Assembly (NCBI RefSeq): GCF_035474595.1
Contig: NZ_DATIND010000003.1
Span: forward strand, 1-34,560
From: Longimicrobium sp.
Lineage (GTDB): Bacteria > Gemmatimonadota > Gemmatimonadetes > Longimicrobiales > Longimicrobiaceae
Reading direction: 5' to 3'
Length of the DNA stretch: 34,560 nt
Part shown: positions 6,090-34,560 of the stretch, one piece after another
Numbering within the stretch: position 1 is the stretch's first letter
Layout: every line of letters begins with the position of its first letter
Made by a program: the position numbers and the translations under genes
Notes under the pieces: generated by a model
What the model saw: the letters and a program-made list of their open reading frames with translations, nothing else
Databases searched by the model: none
Told to the model about the DNA's origin: nothing

Positions 6090-6889
6090 CGTTGCGGCTC
6101 CCTGGCTCCCCATGGGCTTCGTGGCGCGCCTCATCAGGCGCGCGAGGTTCCACTGATCGTCGTCTGTTTACCGGGCCGGCGGCGCGCGCCGAACGCGAAG
6201 ATCGGGCCAGCGCATCCCCGGTTGTGGCGGAACGTGCATCATTGATAACGGCAAAGTGAGAAAAAGGGGAGTGGGTCGTGAACTGTTACCTTCTGCGACC
6301 GCGGGGGTCCTCCCCGCCCTCCCCCGCCGGACCAATGGGGAGAGGTGGAGCCGATGCGAGGAAGGGCCATGCGGGAGCATCGCACGCGAAGCGCGGCGCG
6401 GTGGATCCTGCCCGCGCCGCGCGTGCATCGTCGCCGCCGGGCCGGTCGGCGGGCCCGGGGCCTTCTCGCCGCCCGGAGCGCGACACCTTCGTGCCACCGG
6501 CTGCGAACTCCCGCCGTGCGGCCGGCCCCGTCGCGATTGCGAAAACCGGGGGCACGCTCCCCCGACCCACGGAGCGACGGCAACGAGTCCTTTAAGGAAG
6601 ACATCGAGCGACGGCCAGGTGTCGTACGGCTACCGCAACACCTACGTCTCCTGTTGATCCACGCCGCAGGGAGACGACGAAAAGCGCGGCAGCGGCCCAG
6701 TGCCGCTCCCGCGCTCGTGTGGTTGCTGCGACTTCTTCAGTCGCCGGTGGGCGTGGAAGGGCGACTGAAATCGCGGCAACAACGGCCCGAAGTCCGCCTT
6801 CGCGGACTCCCCGCCTCGGTATCTCCGCTCGATTCCAGCCGGCAGAACGCCTCCGGTTCCCCTCCCCTGCCTCCGATGCCGGGCCGAAC
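6090..6889. other. Long intergenic stretch with repeat fragments, no credible gene
   Basis: Open frames here on both strands are Arg/Pro/Gly-rich and lack ribosome sites, as expected from chance frames in GC-rich DNA. 6719-6749 and 6759-6783 are inverted fragments of the repeat found whole at 6890-6947. The rest (about 6165-6700) has no recognisable feature. It may be decayed sequence. Confidence 0.5.
6719..6783. repeat. Inverted pair of partial intergenic-repeat fragments
   Basis: GTGGTTGCTGCGACTTC...CAGTCGCCGGTG (6719-6749) matches the second half of the repeat at 6890-6947. The following GGGCGACTGAAATCGCGGC...AACAAC (6759-6783) is a similar segment in reverse orientation. Confidence 0.6.
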
Positions 6890-6947
6890 AGCCTCGCGCA
6901 GTTTGCGAGGCTTCCCGTGGTTGTTGCTGCGGCTTCAGTCGCCGGTG
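6890..6947 (+). repeat. 58-bp intergenic repeat, copy 1, downstream of tdk
   Basis: Starts with the perfect hairpin AGCCTCGC-GCAGTTT-GCGAGGCT, continues TTGTTGCTGCGGCTTCAG and ends CGCCGGTG, 2 nt from the tdk stop codon. Other copies are at 11488-11553 and, reversed, at 34456-34513. The hairpin could help end transcription. Confidence 0.8.
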
Positions 6948-7799: not shown

Positions 7800-9122
7800 C
7801 AGGCTGCTAAAAATCGCAATGTACACTTTCGGTCGAAGCGGCACGGCTGTAAATTGCCGTAACCTTCGGCCGGGAGCATGGATGCGCGGACGCGAACCAG
7901 AGCAGCGGGTGATGTTCAGCTACGTGAACATCGAGACGCGGATTCCGCGGGATCACCCGTTGCGCATCGTGAAAAAGCTTGTGGACGCGGTGCTTCGGCA
8001 GCTCTCGCCACGATTCGACACGATGTACGCCCGCGGCGGACGGCCGAGCGTACCGCCGGAGCAGCTCCTGCGGGCGCTGCTGATCCAGATTCTGTACTCG
8101 GTGCGAAGCGAGCGCCTGCTGATGGAGCAGCTCGACTACAACCTGCTCTTCCGCTGGTTCGTCGGACTCGGGATCGACGACGAGGTGTGGGTCCCGGAGA
8201 CGTTCACGGTCAACCGCGACCGGTTGCTGGAAGCCGAGGTCGCGCACGCGTTCTTCCACGCCGTGGTTGAACAGGCGCGCAGCCGGAAGCTGCTGTCGGA
8301 CGACCACTTCACCGTCGACGGCACCCTGCTGGAGGCGTGGGCCAGCCAGAAGAGCTTTCGGCCGATCGACGAGCCGCCGGACGCGAAGCCCGGGGGCCGC
8401 AACCCGGAGGTGAACTTCCGGGGCGAGAAGCGCGGCAACGCGACGCACCGTTCCACGACCGATCCCGACGCCCGGCTGGCGAAGAAGGGCAACACCGCGG
8501 CGAAGCTGGCCTACACGGCGAGCGCGCTCATGGAGAACCGCCACGGGCTGATCGTCGACACCGAGGTGGAGCACGCGACCGGGACGGCGGAATGCGACAG
8601 CGCGCTCGCGATGCTGGACCGCCTGCCGAAGAAGAAGCGTCGGCGCACGCTGGGGGCGGACAAGCTGTACGACACGAAGGACTTCGTGCGAGGCTGCCGG
8701 GAGCAGGGCTTCACGCCGCACGTGGCGCAGAACATCAACGATCAGCGGGGCAGCGCGATCGATTCGCGGACCACGCGGCATGCGGGATACGCGGTGAGCC
8801 AGCGCAAGCGCAAGCTGGTCGAGCAGGGATTCGGCTGGGACAAGACCGTGGGCCTGCTGGACAAGCTGCGCCACCGCGGCAAGAAGCTGGTCGGCTGGGT
8901 CTACGCCTTCACCTCGGCGGCGTACAACCTGGTGAGGCTGCGCACCCTCATCGCGGCCGGAGTGTGCCCGTGATCCGCGCTGAGACGCTTCCGCGCACCG
9001 ATTCCGGTGCGAAACAGGACGAAACGGCACGCCCGGAGCTCCCCTGGACGCTGGGCCTGCTGACGACCCCCGGTTTGAGGAGTCGGGCGAAGCCCAAGCA
9101 CTGTTTTTTAGCATCCTGTTAG
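7796..9122 (+). mobile_element. IS5-family insertion sequence with 4-bp TTAG target duplication
   Basis: The element spans 7800-9118 (1319 bp). Its ends are inverted repeats: CAGGCTGCTAAAAA at 7800-7813 and, reversed, CAGGATGCTAAAAA at 9105-9118, with one mismatch. Both sides are flanked by TTAG (7796-7799 and 9119-9122), a 4-bp YTAR duplication as known for the IS5 group. It carries one transposase gene without frameshift. Removing the IS and one TTAG restores a sequence that matches 27802-27853 on the other strand with a single difference, which fixes the boundaries. Confidence 0.92.
7882..8973 (+). CDS. IS5-family DDE transposase
   Basis: A 363-aa transposase that cuts and joins the element ends. 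The N-terminal InsH/DUF772-type region (residues about 15-90) includes GRPSVPPEQLLRALLIQILY and the typical SERLLMEQLDYNLLFRWFVGL. The DDE catalytic residues are recognisable: Asp146 (FTVDGTLLEAWAS), Asp260 (LGADKLYDT) and Glu314 (KLVEQGFGWDKT). The start ATG at 7882 follows CGGGAG. An in-frame ATG at 7819 would add 21 residues unlike the family. The frame is intact and full length, so the element may be active. An IS1182-like assignment was considered, but the TTAG duplication and domain order favour IS5. Confidence 0.92.
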   Translation: MRGREPEQRVMFSYVNIETRIPRDHPLRIVKKLVDAVLRQLSPRFDTMYARGGRPSVPPEQLLRALLIQILYSVRSERLLMEQLDYNLLFRWFVGLGIDDEVWVPETFTVNRDRLLEAEVAHAFFHAVVEQARSRKLLSDDHFTVDGTLLEAWASQKSFRPIDEPPDAKPGGRNPEVNFRGEKRGNATHRSTTDPDARLAKKGNTAAKLAYTASALMENRHGLIVDTEVEHATGTAECDSALAMLDRLPKKKRRRTLGADKLYDTKDFVRGCREQGFTPHVAQNINDQRGSAIDSRTTRHAGYAVSQRKRKLVEQGFGWDKTVGLLDKLRHRGKKLVGWVYAFTSAAYNLVRLRTLIAAGVCP

Positions 9123-10102: not shown

Positions 10103-10285
10103 ATGAAGAAGCTCTGCCTCGAAACGCTTCACGTCGAATCGTTCGCCACCTCGGACGCGGCGGCCCCCGCGCGCGGAACGGTGCGGGCGCACGCCGCGTC
10201 CGGGCTGCCCTGCAACCTGCTCACCATCGACACCTGCCCCACGCAGTACTGCACCCCGCCCACGGCCTTCGTGCCGGAGGCGTAA
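10103..10285 (+). CDS. Lanthipeptide-like (pinensin-type) precursor peptide 1
   Basis: A 60-aa peptide, first of six in a row. The leader MKKLCLETLHVESFAT follows the shared pattern M-K-K-L-x-L-(3-4)-L/V-x-V-E-S-F. A spacer with ARGTVRAH follows, then a core with three Cys (37, 45, 50) and several Thr/Ser (DTCPTQYCT). Such cores are made into thioether rings in lanthipeptides. It differs from its neighbours by an extra Cys in the leader and a Cys-free C-terminal tail. Ribosome site GAGAGGAAC lies just before the ATG. Identity as a RiPP precursor is by resemblance and repetition; the product is unknown. Confidence 0.75.
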   Translation: MKKLCLETLHVESFATSDAAAPARGTVRAHAASGLPCNLLTIDTCPTQYCTPPTAFVPEA

Positions 10286-10304
10286 CCGCAACCGGGAGAG
10301 GACG

Positions 10305-10505
10305 ATGAAGAAGCTGAGGCTGGAGCTGGACGCGGTGCGGGTGGAGTCGTTCGCCACCGCGCGCGGCCGCGCCGTCTCCACGCGCGGGACGATGCGCGCC
10401 TTCGCCGCCACGGACGCGTGCCCGACCAACCACTGCGCCACGGTCCCGCTCTTCTGCGAGACGGTGTTCGCGCCGCAGTGCACGGGAACCACGTGCACCG
10501 GCTGA
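10305..10505 (+). CDS. Lanthipeptide-like precursor peptide 2
   Basis: A 66-aa peptide, 19 nt after peptide 1. The leader is MKKLRLELDAVRVESFAT, the linker is TRGTMRAF, and the core carries five Cys (DACPTNHCA..FCETV..QCTGTTCTG) with many Thr. Its own ribosome site (GAGAGGAC) precedes the ATG. The short spacing suggests co-transcription with peptides 1 and 3. Confidence 0.77.
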   Translation: MKKLRLELDAVRVESFATARGRAVSTRGTMRAFAATDACPTNHCATVPLFCETVFAPQCTGTTCTG

Positions 10506-10530
10506 TCCGACACACGGACTGGAGGGACCG

Positions 10531-10728
10531 ATGAAGAAGCTGAAGCTGAAGATGGACACGCTCGCGGTCGCCACTTTCACCACCGGCGAGCGCGCGAAGA
10601 TCGCCAGCCGCGGCACGATGCGCGGGCACGACGAGGAAGTGATCACCCAGCGCTGCCTCACGGGCACGGAGACCTACACCTGCCCCACGTCGGCCGCCAG
10701 CTGCCCCACCTGCACGATCGCCGGGTAG
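10531..10728 (+). CDS. Lanthipeptide-like precursor peptide 3
   Basis: A 65-aa peptide with leader MKKLKLKMDTLAVATFTT, linker SRGTMRGH and a core with four Cys in LTGTETYTCPTSAASCPTC. It is the closest relative of peptide 4, sharing RGTMRGH and LTGTETYxCPT. Ribosome site GGAGGGACC lies directly upstream. Confidence 0.78.
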   Translation: MKKLKLKMDTLAVATFTTGERAKIASRGTMRGHDEEVITQRCLTGTETYTCPTSAASCPTCTIAG

Positions 10729-10776
10729 CGAAGGGAGCCCCGGACGAACGCGGAAACCCTGGATGGACGGGAAAAG

Positions 10777-10980
10777 ATGCAGAAGCTGAAGCTCGACGTG
10801 GACGCGCTCGCGGTCGCCTCGTTCGCCACCGGCAGCGGCACCGCCGCGATCCGCGGCACCATGCGCGGCCACGAAAGCCACCTGACGGGGACGGAGACGT
10901 ACCGCTGCCCCACGCCCACCTGCCCCACCTGGGCTGCCACCTGCCTCACCTGCGCGGCCGAAGAGCAGCGGGAGGGATGA
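10777..10980 (+). CDS. Lanthipeptide-like precursor peptide 4
   Basis: A 67-aa peptide with leader MQKLKLDVDALAVASFAT, linker IRGTMRGHE and a core with four Cys (YRCPTPTCPTWAATCLTC), then a charged tail AAEEQREG. Shared core motifs with peptide 3 point to a recent duplication. Ribosome site GGGAAAAG. The stop is separated by one base from the ATG of peptide 5, which suggests coupled translation. Confidence 0.78.
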   Translation: MQKLKLDVDALAVASFATGSGTAAIRGTMRGHESHLTGTETYRCPTPTCPTWAATCLTCAAEEQREG

Positions 10981-10981
10981 G

Positions 10982-11149
10982 ATGCGCCCGATGAAGCTGG
11001 ACCTCGCCCGGCTGGCGGTGGAGTCGTTCGCGACGGCGCCGGGTTCGCCCGCCGCCGTCACCGCGCACGAGCTCGCCGCCACGCCGCTGTGCGTGAACAC
11101 GCTGCCGGTGAACGAGTGCCTGACGCAGGACACCTTCCGGAACTGCTGA
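10982..11149 (+). CDS. Lanthipeptide-like precursor peptide 5
   Basis: A 55-aa peptide and the shortest of the six. The leader is MRPMKLDLARLAVESFAT. The RGT motif is lost, and only TAHE remains of the linker. The core has three Cys (TPLCVNTLPVNECLTQ..NC) and ends on Cys. It starts one base after the stop of peptide 4, and its ribosome site GGAGGG lies inside the end of peptide 4. Start at ATG 10982; an alternative ATG three codons later keeps the leader pattern. Confidence 0.75.
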   Translation: MRPMKLDLARLAVESFATAPGSPAAVTAHELAATPLCVNTLPVNECLTQDTFRNC

Positions 11150-11180
11150 CGGAAACCGCTTTCGGGGAGATGGAGATTTC

Positions 11181-11384
11181 ATGCGCAAGCTGACGCTGGA
11201 CCTGCACGCGCTCGCGGTGGACTCGTTCCCCATCCCGGCGGCCGATGGCGCGCGGGGAACGGTCGCGGCGCACGCGCCGACCCAGACCACCTGCCCCGTG
11301 ACGGGCGGCGACTGCCAGACGAACATCATCTTCTGCCCCAGCCGCGTCGTCTCGCAGTGCGGCTGCGTGAGCGACACCTGCTGA
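11181..11384 (+). CDS. Lanthipeptide-like precursor peptide 6
   Basis: A 67-aa peptide, last of the array. The leader is MRKLTLDLHALAVDSFPI, the linker is ARGTVAAH, and the core is the most Cys-rich with six Cys (TTCPVTGGDCQT..FCPS..QCGCVSDTC), ending on Cys. Ribosome site GGAG lies within GGGGAGATGGAG upstream. A strong hairpin 7 nt after the stop closes the transcript. Confidence 0.77.
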   Translation: MRKLTLDLHALAVDSFPIPAADGARGTVAAHAPTQTTCPVTGGDCQTNIIFCPSRVVSQCGCVSDTC

Positions 11385-11391
11385 CATGAAC

Positions 11392-11419
11392 GGGCCGCGC
11401 TCCCGACGGAGCGCGGCCC
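11392..11419 (+). terminator. Terminator hairpin after the precursor array
   Basis: Perfect 12-bp stem GGGCCGCGCTCC / GGAGCGCGGCCC with loop CGAC, 7 nt after the stop of peptide 6. No clear T-run follows (TGCGTAGC), so it may rely on the stem alone. Confidence 0.7.
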
Positions 11420-11487
11420 TGCGTAGCTCTGCGAATGGTTCGATCGGGAGCTTGCTCCTGGCATTTGATCCGGCTGCCGAGCCGAAC

Positions 11488-11553
11488 AGCCTCGCGCAGT
11501 TTGCGAGGCTTCCCGTGGTTGTTGCTGCGCCGCTGCGCCTTCAGTCGCCGGTG
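11488..11553 (+). repeat. Intergenic repeat, copy 2, with an 8-bp insertion
   Basis: Same sequence as 6890-6947, including the AGCCTCGC/GCGAGGCT hairpin, with an extra CCGCTGCG after GTTGCTGCG. It again lies downstream of a minus-strand gene (11630-12784). Confidence 0.8.
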
Positions 11554-11629
11554 AGGAGGCCAGCCCGCGAACGGGTCCCGGTTCGGACGCCGGGCGGAAT
11601 CACCCGGAGTATTTCCTCCGCACCCGGTT

Positions 11630-22225: not shown

Positions 22226-24985
22226 ATGAGACCCAACGAAAGCAGCACCCAGATGCCCGGCAAGCAGGCCGGCACGGACCCGCGGCAGCACGACATGCCT
22301 GGCGGCGCCATGGCCGACGCGTCGGAGGAGATGCCCGGAGGAGGGATGGGCGCGGCACCCGCCATCGGCATGAGCGCGGGCGAGGCGGACGGCCAGAGCG
22401 GGAAGGGGGCGTACGACCACGGGATGGCCGCGGCCGCGGCGCCCGCGCAATCCACCCGCGGCCGCCGCGCCATTCGCGTCCCCGTCGCTTCCGCCGGTGA
22501 CATGCCCGCCGCCGGCGAGCCGTACGACCCCGGGACGGGCGACATGCCCCGCGCCGGCGGCCCGGGCGGCCACGACGGAATGCCCGCGGACGCGATGGAC
22601 GGGACGGGTGGGGACGAGCGCCAGAACGTGCTGATCGAGCTGCGCGTTCCGGCCACGCGCGCGGCTGCGCACGCCTTCGACATGGTGGCGGGCTTCAGCG
22701 TTCCCGGGCTGGAGATCGACCCGGGCTACGCCCCGGTGCCGCTGGGGCCCAGCGGCGGAGACACCCGCTCGCTGGCCGCGGAAGACGCGGGCGGCGGCCA
22801 GACGGTGGTGGTGCGAGGGACCGTGCACCCCGACCAGATCCAGGAGCTGGAGGCGCGCGACGACGTGGTGAAGGTGTGGAAGGACACGCCCATCGCCCCG
22901 TTCTCCACCCTGATCGAGGAGGGGGCGGAGGTCGGCGTCGTGTCGCCCATGCAGGGATTCTCCCCCTGCCCCATCGGCACCTGCGACTGCTCGCCGGGAA
23001 CGCCCAAGGGCACCATCGCCGACGTGGCCGCGTACCTGGGGGCCGACCAGATCTGGGCGACGGGGATCAGGGGCGACGGCATCGTGGTGGGAGTGGTCGA
23101 CGGCGGGATCACCGCGGCCGGCCGCCCCGTCTCATCGGCCGACACCTCGAACCCGTCGTGGCCGGGGAAGCTGATCCAGCACGTCATCGGCGGCTTCCCG
23201 GCGGCCGATTGGGGGACCACCGGCGTGGCCTGGGGGTGGCACGCCAACATGTGCTCCACCGACGTCATGGGAATGGCGCCCAACTCCCGCGTGTACGACA
23301 TCCGGGTGTCGGGCGGAACCAGCACCGTGTCGAACGCGCTGGCGGGGTTCCAGTGGGCCATCGACCGCCACCGGGCCGACGGCACGCCGCAGATCCTGAC
23401 CAACAGCTGGGGCATCTTCCAGCAGTCGTGGGACCCGGCGTACGCCACCGACCCCAACCATCCCTTCACCCGCAAGGTGGTGGAGGCGCTGGACGAGGGG
23501 ATCCTGGTGCTCTTCGCCGCCGGCAACTGCGGCGCCACCTGCCCCGACGGCCGCTGCGGCCCCGACACCGGGCCCGGCCACGACATCTGGGGCGCCAATG
23601 GCCACCCGCGGGTGATGACCGTGGGGGCGGTGAACAGGAACGAGCAGTACGTGGGCTACAGCAGCGCCGGCCCCGCCGCGCTGGACCCGCAGAAGCCCGA
23701 CTTCTGCTCGATCACCCACTTCACCGGCTTCTTCACCAGCGACAGCGGCACCTCGGCGGCCACGCCGATCTGCGCCGGGGTGGTGGCGCTGATGAAGCAG
23801 GCCTCGCCGGGGCTCACGCAGGACCAGGCCAAGGCGGCGCTGAAGTCCACCGCCAAGGACATCGGCGCGCCCGGGTGGGACCCGTTCGCCGGCGCGGGAA
23901 TCATCCGCGCCAAGGCCGCGCTCGACGTGGTGGCGGCCGCCCCGCGCACCTCGGGCCCGGTGGTGGCGTGGGCACCGAACCGCCTGGATGCGTTCGTCAT
24001 CGGCACCACCTCGGGGCTGCACCACAAGTACTGGAACGGCTCGGCCTGGGGCCCGTCTTTCACCGGGTACGAATTCATGGGCGGCACCATCCAGGACTCG
24101 GCCGAAGTGGTCGCCTGGGGCCCCAATCGCCTGGACGTGTTCGTGGTGGGGATGAACTCGGGGCTGTACCACAAGTACTGGAACGGCGCGGCGTGGGGGC
24201 CGTCGGTCACCGGCTACGAGTTCCTGGGCGGCGTGATCGAGGGACACCCGCGCGCCGTGGCGTGGGGCTCCAATCGCCTGGACGTGTTCGTGGTGGGCAC
24301 CGACCGGGCGCTCTACCACAAGTACTGGAACGGCTCGGCGTGGGGGCCGTCGGTCACCGGCTACGAGAACCTGGGCGGAACCATCGTGGGCTCGCCCGAG
24401 GTGGTGGCGTGGGGGCCCAACCGGCTGGACATCTTCGTGGTGGGCACGAACTCGGGGCTCTACCACAAGTACTGGAACGGCTCCGCCTGGGGGCCGTCGG
24501 TCACCGGCTACGAATTCCTGGGCGGCGTCATCGAGGGGCAGCCCAGGGCCGTGGCCTGGGGGGCCAACCGCCTCGACCTGTTCGTGGTGGGAACCGACCG
24601 GGCGCTGTACCACAAGTACTGGAACGGTTCGGCGTGGGGGCCGTCGGTCACCGGCTACGAGAACCTGGGCGGCACCATCCAGGGCTCGCCCGAGGTGGTG
24701 GCGTGGGGCCCCAACCGGCTGGACGTGTTCGTGCTGGGCACCGACCACGCGCTCTACCACAAGTGGTGGAACGGCTCCGCCTGGGGGCCGTCGGTCACCG
24801 GGTGGGAGAACCTCGGTGGTACCATCCGCGGCCAACCGCACGTGGTGTCGTGGGGCGCCAACCGGCTCGACGTGTTCGTCACCGGGATGGATTCGGCGCT
24901 CTACCACAAGTGGTGGAACGGCTCCGCCTGGGGCCCGTCGTTCACCGGCTACGAGAACATGGGAGGCGTGCTCTCGGAGTTCTGA
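22226..24985 (+). CDS. S8 (subtilisin-family) protease fused to a seven-repeat beta-propeller
   Basis: A 919-aa protein. Residues 1-130 are Met/Gly/Pro/Asp-rich, low in complexity and without a signal peptide. Residues about 135-220 resemble an inhibitor-like prodomain (NVLIELRVPATRAAAHAF...). The S8 catalytic domain follows: Asp292 (VGVVDGGIT), His339 (WGWHANMCS), oxyanion Asn434 (FAAGNCG) and Ser510 (SGTSAATP). The His motif departs from the usual HGTHVAG, but the catalytic His is present. Several Cys (CPIGTCDCSPG, NCGATCPDGRCG) may form disulfides. From residue 579 seven repeats of 49 residues follow, each with NRLDxFVxG, ALYHKxWNGSAWGPS and TGYExxGG; this DUF346-like unit forms seven-bladed lectin-type propellers. 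It probably acts outside the cytoplasm, by an export route I cannot see. Ribosome site GGAGG. Confidence 0.9.
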   Translation: MRPNESSTQMPGKQAGTDPRQHDMPGGAMADASEEMPGGGMGAAPAIGMSAGEADGQSGKGAYDHGMAAAAAPAQSTRGRRAIRVPVASAGDMPAAGEPYDPGTGDMPRAGGPGGHDGMPADAMDGTGGDERQNVLIELRVPATRAAAHAFDMVAGFSVPGLEIDPGYAPVPLGPSGGDTRSLAAEDAGGGQTVVVRGTVHPDQIQELEARDDVVKVWKDTPIAPFSTLIEEGAEVGVVSPMQGFSPCPIGTCDCSPGTPKGTIADVAAYLGADQIWATGIRGDGIVVGVVDGGITAAGRPVSSADTSNPSWPGKLIQHVIGGFPAADWGTTGVAWGWHANMCSTDVMGMAPNSRVYDIRVSGGTSTVSNALAGFQWAIDRHRADGTPQILTNSWGIFQQSWDPAYATDPNHPFTRKVVEALDEGILVLFAAGNCGATCPDGRCGPDTGPGHDIWGANGHPRVMTVGAVNRNEQYVGYSSAGPAALDPQKPDFCSITHFTGFFTSDSGTSAATPICAGVVALMKQASPGLTQDQAKAALKSTAKDIGAPGWDPFAGAGIIRAKAALDVVAAAPRTSGPVVAWAPNRLDAFVIGTTSGLHHKYWNGSAWGPSFTGYEFMGGTIQDSAEVVAWGPNRLDVFVVGMNSGLYHKYWNGAAWGPSVTGYEFLGGVIEGHPRAVAWGSNRLDVFVVGTDRALYHKYWNGSAWGPSVTGYENLGGTIVGSPEVVAWGPNRLDIFVVGTNSGLYHKYWNGSAWGPSVTGYEFLGGVIEGQPRAVAWGANRLDLFVVGTDRALYHKYWNGSAWGPSVTGYENLGGTIQGSPEVVAWGPNRLDVFVLGTDHALYHKWWNGSAWGPSVTGWENLGGTIRGQPHVVSWGANRLDVFVTGMDSALYHKWWNGSAWGPSFTGYENMGGVLSEF
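23960..24982 (+). repeat. Seven in-frame 147-bp repeats in the protease gene
   Basis: Repeats begin at 23960, 24107, 24254, 24401, 24548, 24695 and 24842, and the last is slightly short. Each encodes one 49-residue propeller blade. Blades 2+3 and 4+5 are nearly identical as pairs, showing duplication of a 294-bp unit. Confidence 0.9.
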
Positions 24986-34430: not shown

Positions 34431-34455
34431 TAGAAAGTGCGCGGGCGCAGCCGGT

Positions 34456-34513
34456 CACCGGCGACTGAAGTCGCAGCAACAACTACGGGAAGCCTCGCAA
34501 ACTGCGCGAGGCT
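34456..34513 (-). repeat. 58-bp intergenic repeat, copy 3 (reversed)
   Basis: CACCGGCGACTGAAGTCGC through AGCCTCGCAAACTGCGCGAG is the reverse complement of 6890-6947 with a few changes. It includes the same hairpin. Confidence 0.8.
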
Positions 34514-34560
34514 GATTCCGCTCACTCCGCGGCCCCGGTGCTCACGACCGATCTCCTTTC

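Follow-up and report, generated by a model that had tools for sequence, protein, structure and literature searches.

The six consecutive small genes at positions 10103-11384 of the window, the 34,560-nucleotide stretch of Longimicrobium sp. DNA that was analysed, are very probably precursors of pinensin-type class I lanthipeptides that are modified in trans by LanB and LanC enzymes encoded elsewhere. Sequence comparisons demonstrate a leader family, its dispersed expansion across the genome, its co-occurrence and co-localization with class I enzymes, and purifying selection. Taken singly, these genes are unremarkable representatives of a larger system, and it is in this system that the interest lies.

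The genes are all on the plus strand. None of the frames is interrupted, every one begins with ATG, and each is preceded by a purine-rich sequence that resembles a Shine-Dalgarno site. Gene 1 (10103-10285) encodes 60 amino acids with three Cys residues in the core, and has an unusual Cys in the leader (MKKLCLE). Gene 2 (10305-10505; 66 residues) has five core Cys, gene 3 (10531-10728; 65 residues) and gene 4 (10777-10980; 67 residues) four each, gene 5 (10982-11149; 55 residues) three, and gene 6 (11181-11384; 67 residues) six. The common leader follows the pattern M-[KRQ]-x-[LM]-x-L...V-x-[ST]-F, and the linker RGT[VM] is found in every gene except gene 5. Mean pairwise identity is 46% among leaders and 27% among cores, with genes 3 and 4 forming the closest pair (leader 60%, core 50%). 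The description in the earlier note of six plus-strand genes of 55-67 codons with individual ribosome sites, a shared leader, a mostly shared linker and divergent, Thr-rich cores with three to six Cys was confirmed.

The NCBIfam model NF038180 (leader_pinensin), the existence of which shows that the leader family is already known to curators, matched three of the six genes with 22.2 (gene 1), 12.2 and 12.6 bits, each below the 24-bit cut-off, and did not match the other three. By contrast with the array, where no gene attains the cut-off alone, 17 same-leader places in the genome do, and together with the sub-threshold matches these support the pinensin-type leader proposed previously. As NCBIfam and Pfam alone did not give a secure assignment for the six genes, a leader HMM was built from 87 leaders located elsewhere in the same genome with the window left out. 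This model scored all six genes, with i-E values of 8.0e-13, 5.3e-11, 3.8e-11, 1.1e-12, 2.9e-6 and 3.4e-13 for genes 1-6, respectively, whereas reversed proteins yielded no matches to it at E≤0.1. The six cores contain 11.8% Cys and 18.9% Thr, whereas the window's housekeeping proteins have 1.1% Cys and 4.7% Thr. Cores of the whole family contain 14.6% Cys and 11.9% Thr, with only 0.17% Cys in family leaders. The empty reversed control and the Cys enrichment rule out chance small open reading frames.

The earlier note had suggested a genome-wide search for the leader motif and for modification enzymes, which revealed at least 150 leader genes as well as enzymes of classes I, II and III. The leader count was obtained with an alignment built from the genome (E≤0.001) and is a floor, as all 150 candidates that were scored matched at this threshold. 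With NF038180 at E≤10, 127 places were detected; certain control genomes also matched at this permissive value, but none above the cut-off. Within ~1.1 Mb of genome stretches, 144 distinct leader genes fall into 73 groups, of which 46 consist of a lone gene and the largest arrays contain eight. The six-gene array is one of more than 70 same-leader sites, so that its description as orphan in the earlier note is correct but falls short of the full picture. A DNA pattern for the leader occurred 104 times genome-wide versus three times when read backwards. The pattern detects 75 of the 144 known leaders, and extrapolation from count and detection rate suggests a total of ~190 leader genes. Among related genomes, G008 possesses at least 150, G001 at least 148, G009 82, and G006 a single leader gene. 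Precursor numbers that differ so sharply between relatives, from zero to at least 150, make expansion and loss directly comparable. In G008, ~24 leader genes are packed into 11.7 kb of contig C20 (locus L128), which unites relatives of arrays that are separate, on C80 and C70, in the genome under study. The solitary G006 gene (L113, 14242, minus strand), the core of which is built from SCSGCTSC-like repeats, adjoins a LanB-N gene.

Domain and profile searches produced no LanB, LanC or LanM matches on the contig that bears the array, in accord with the earlier note, which saw none nearby. The nearest candidate protease identified is an S8 subtilase (22226-24985) ~11 kb distant. A 12-bp hairpin follows gene 6 at about 11392-11419 on the plus strand. 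The strong hairpin noted previously at the end of the array is real (-31.7 kcal/mol; z -3.9) and possibly marks the 3' end of the transcript, but it has no T-run and was not called as an intrinsic terminator. Further downstream, at 11467-11573, is a REP-like dispersed element with a 9-bp hairpin and the core AGCCTCGCGCAGTTTGCGAGGCT. Copies at 6877-6947 and 34455-34523 give 84-87% identity within the window, at least 13 more are present in the genome at 86-96%, and others were observed in G001, G007 and G008. Upstream of the array, a DDE transposase gene (DUF772 and DDE_Tnp_1; 7819-8973), to which the syntenic G008 stretch has no match, is positioned between the genes for thymidine kinase and an NYN ribonuclease.

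A split LanB and a LanC are encoded elsewhere in the genome and not beside the array. LanC-like matches are located on contigs C23, C25, C136 and C87. Those on C25 and C136 carry a LanM dehydratase domain and that on C87 is a LanKC, whereas C23 bears a class I locus in which adjacent frames match PF04738, PF14028 and PF05147. In this locus, a LanB-N gene that the contig end truncates is accompanied by genes for an elimination protein of its own (PF14028), LanC, an ABC transporter and HlyD, and by five precursors with the same leader. The C23 LanC retains both zinc motifs, WCHG and CHG, and scores best with a LanM model. A second LanB-N gene, preceded by an M20 peptidase gene, runs off the end of contig C4. 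The two truncated LanB-N genes are 85.8% identical over 541 bp and are either paralogues or derive from two strains in the assembly, and so were kept separate and not joined. The LanB parts found in the genome are two LanB-N fragments and a single elimination domain that is complete. A full locus exists in G008, with M20 peptidase, LanB-N, LanB-C, LanC, precursors and an ABC transporter, and with LanC zinc motifs (WCHG and CHG) that align with those of LicM2 and LanCL1. A wider scan of genome contigs with LanC gave six loci. In a Melioribacteraceae metagenome-assembled genome, LanB-N, LanB-C, LanC, ABC and HlyD genes are accompanied by three same-leader precursors (locus L086), two of which exceed the NF038180 cut-off. 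Overall, the same leader adjoins split LanB and LanC genes in C23, G008, G014, G015 and the Melioribacteraceae genome. The earlier note regarded a lack of leaders near RiPP enzymes in relatives, or a lack of lanthipeptide enzymes in the genome, as evidence against its reading; neither applies, as leaders are present beside such enzymes in these loci and the genome encodes lanthipeptide enzymes, among them the C23 split LanB and LanC. Its proposal that the array is modified by enzymes encoded elsewhere is strengthened by a concrete locus with same-leader precursors, although action of the C23 enzymes in trans on this particular array is presumed.

The presence of LanM and LanKC enzymes in the genome, with a single leader gene at a distance of ~5-7 kb on each of C25 and C87, speaks against LanB and LanC as the modifying enzymes and raises the alternative that the precursors are processed instead by these class II or III synthetases (LanM on C25 or C136, LanKC on C87). 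This is very unlikely, and for LanM the comparison across genomes speaks against it. Of 41 related genomes, ten have the leader, and precisely these ten also have PF14028, the elimination domain of LanB (Fisher test, 9e-10, a value that overstates independence because the genomes are related). LanM, by contrast, was detected in seven of the 41. Four of the ten genomes with the leader, among them G008 with its abundant leaders, gave no LanM match, and LanM was found in G003, which is leader-free. On this mismatch between LanM and leader presence, LanM was rejected as the main enzyme. Among 249 genomes drawn from across the phylum, PF14028 was found in all seven with the leader. A further seven genomes possessed PF14028 without the leader, but as the best 31 candidates at most were scored per genome, weak single leader members could be missed; in five of these seven, PF14028 lies within a frame of >1000 amino acids that resembles an ordinary fused LanB. 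The class I assignment made previously is thus supported both by the C23 locus and by the co-occurrence of leader and LanB elimination domain.

If the precursors are substrates of the LanB system, the product could nonetheless be other than a thioether peptide, for example one that is solely dehydrated, that contains disulfide bonds or that has undergone some different chemistry. The elimination domain of the split LanB matches a thiopeptide-type bacteriocin model, among solved structures the best relative of LanB-N is 6ec7, annotated as a lantibiotic dehydratase-domain protein, and some cores hold more Cys than nearby Ser/Thr residues. Nevertheless, the LanB genes are followed by a LanC with both zinc-site motifs, and the cores are rich in Thr and Cys alike, which renders this outcome unlikely. 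That the array is instead a silent leftover of the expansion and is in decay is less probable still, verging on the implausible. The upstream NYN-ribonuclease gene and its neighbors are colinear in G008, where one precursor occupies the corresponding place (L122:9732, minus strand) and the downstream aminotransferase gene is on a different contig. The beginning of this precursor's core resembles gene 1 and its C-terminus gene 2, so that these two genes may share a single ancestor. Among the six, a syntenic relative exists for gene 2 and in part for gene 1 only: no counterparts of genes 3-6 were evident at the G008 place, and the homologous place in G001 gave no leader match. The missing genes, the short gene 5 that lacks the linker, and the upstream transposase gene would suit a remnant. 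However, the intact frames and their Shine-Dalgarno-like sites, the persistence of Cys and Thr enrichment in all six genes, and the conserved core of gene 2, with dN of 0.16 below dS of 0.46 against its G008 counterpart, argue otherwise. In 23 pairs that each match a precursor of this genome with one of a relative (core identity >50%), which are best matches and not proven orthologues, pooled dN/dS was 0.49 for leaders and 0.45 for cores. As judged from these ratios, the precursor family is under purifying selection in both leader and core, and the substitution pattern is not the random one that the earlier note would have counted against its reading.

The cores contain the Cys and Ser/Thr residues that (methyl)lanthionine rings require. 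In the favored pathway for pinensin-type class I precursors, the shared leader would be recognized by LanB encoded on C23, C4 or both. Core Ser/Thr residues would be glutamylated via glutamyl-tRNA and then eliminated to Dha/Dhb, to which LanC would add Cys thiols to generate the rings. A putative protease would remove the leader, perhaps near the RGTV[RH][GA] linker, and the product would be exported by the ABC/HlyD system. With few enzymes acting in trans on many dispersed precursors, duplication of a precursor gene followed by divergence of its core would be enough to create a new product. On balance, the lineage appears to run the largest natural combinatorial lanthipeptide system described to date, in which each genome has ~150-190 dispersed precursors that are modified in trans by one or two sets of split LanB and LanC with broad substrate tolerance and not by class II enzymes of the ProcM type.

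The best-known lanthipeptide synthetases that act in trans on varied substrates are class II enzymes of the ProcM type. If a class I system has at least 150 substrates encoded in one genome, it would provide LanB and LanC with a substrate library made by nature, would add new enzymes to those available to peptide engineers, and would offer a test case for why bacteria maintain large peptide repertoires. Most of these precursors would be missed by enzyme-centered genome mining. No description of a system with at least 150 precursors per genome and class I enzymes was found in the literature searched, in which few subscription journals were covered, and a search that combined pinensin with Gemmatimonadota returned nothing relevant. 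The leader type, the enzyme type and, for class II, the dispersed layout are each already known. Pinensin has a split LanB, and its family (precursor family I 17) includes LanM-like LanCs (PMC7268733). The present system shares with it the leader type, the split LanB and a LanC akin to that found as a domain in LanM (PMC7268733), but differs in that the six genes score below the NF038180 cut-off and that the precursors, at least 150 per genome, are dispersed, whereas pinensin-type precursors lie beside their enzymes. Dispersal is instead a trait of the prochlorosins, many precursors of which are encoded far from the enzyme (PMC7268733). Prochlorosin and synechococsin precursors occur singly or in tandem with up to 16 consecutive genes (PMC10783134), and SyncM has 79 substrates in one strain, the highest count found in the literature consulted (PMC9872173), compared to at least 150 precursors with class I enzymes here. 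As with ProcM and SyncM, few enzymes face many dispersed precursors with a shared leader and divergent cores. However, those systems employ class II LanM and Nif11-type leaders, and LanM, which modifies the dispersed precursors in prochlorosin-type systems, does not follow the leader across genomes here, where the modifying enzymes are probably of class I. Thus, the system is prochlorosin-like in layout, but is a probable class I analogue and not a member of the prochlorosins.
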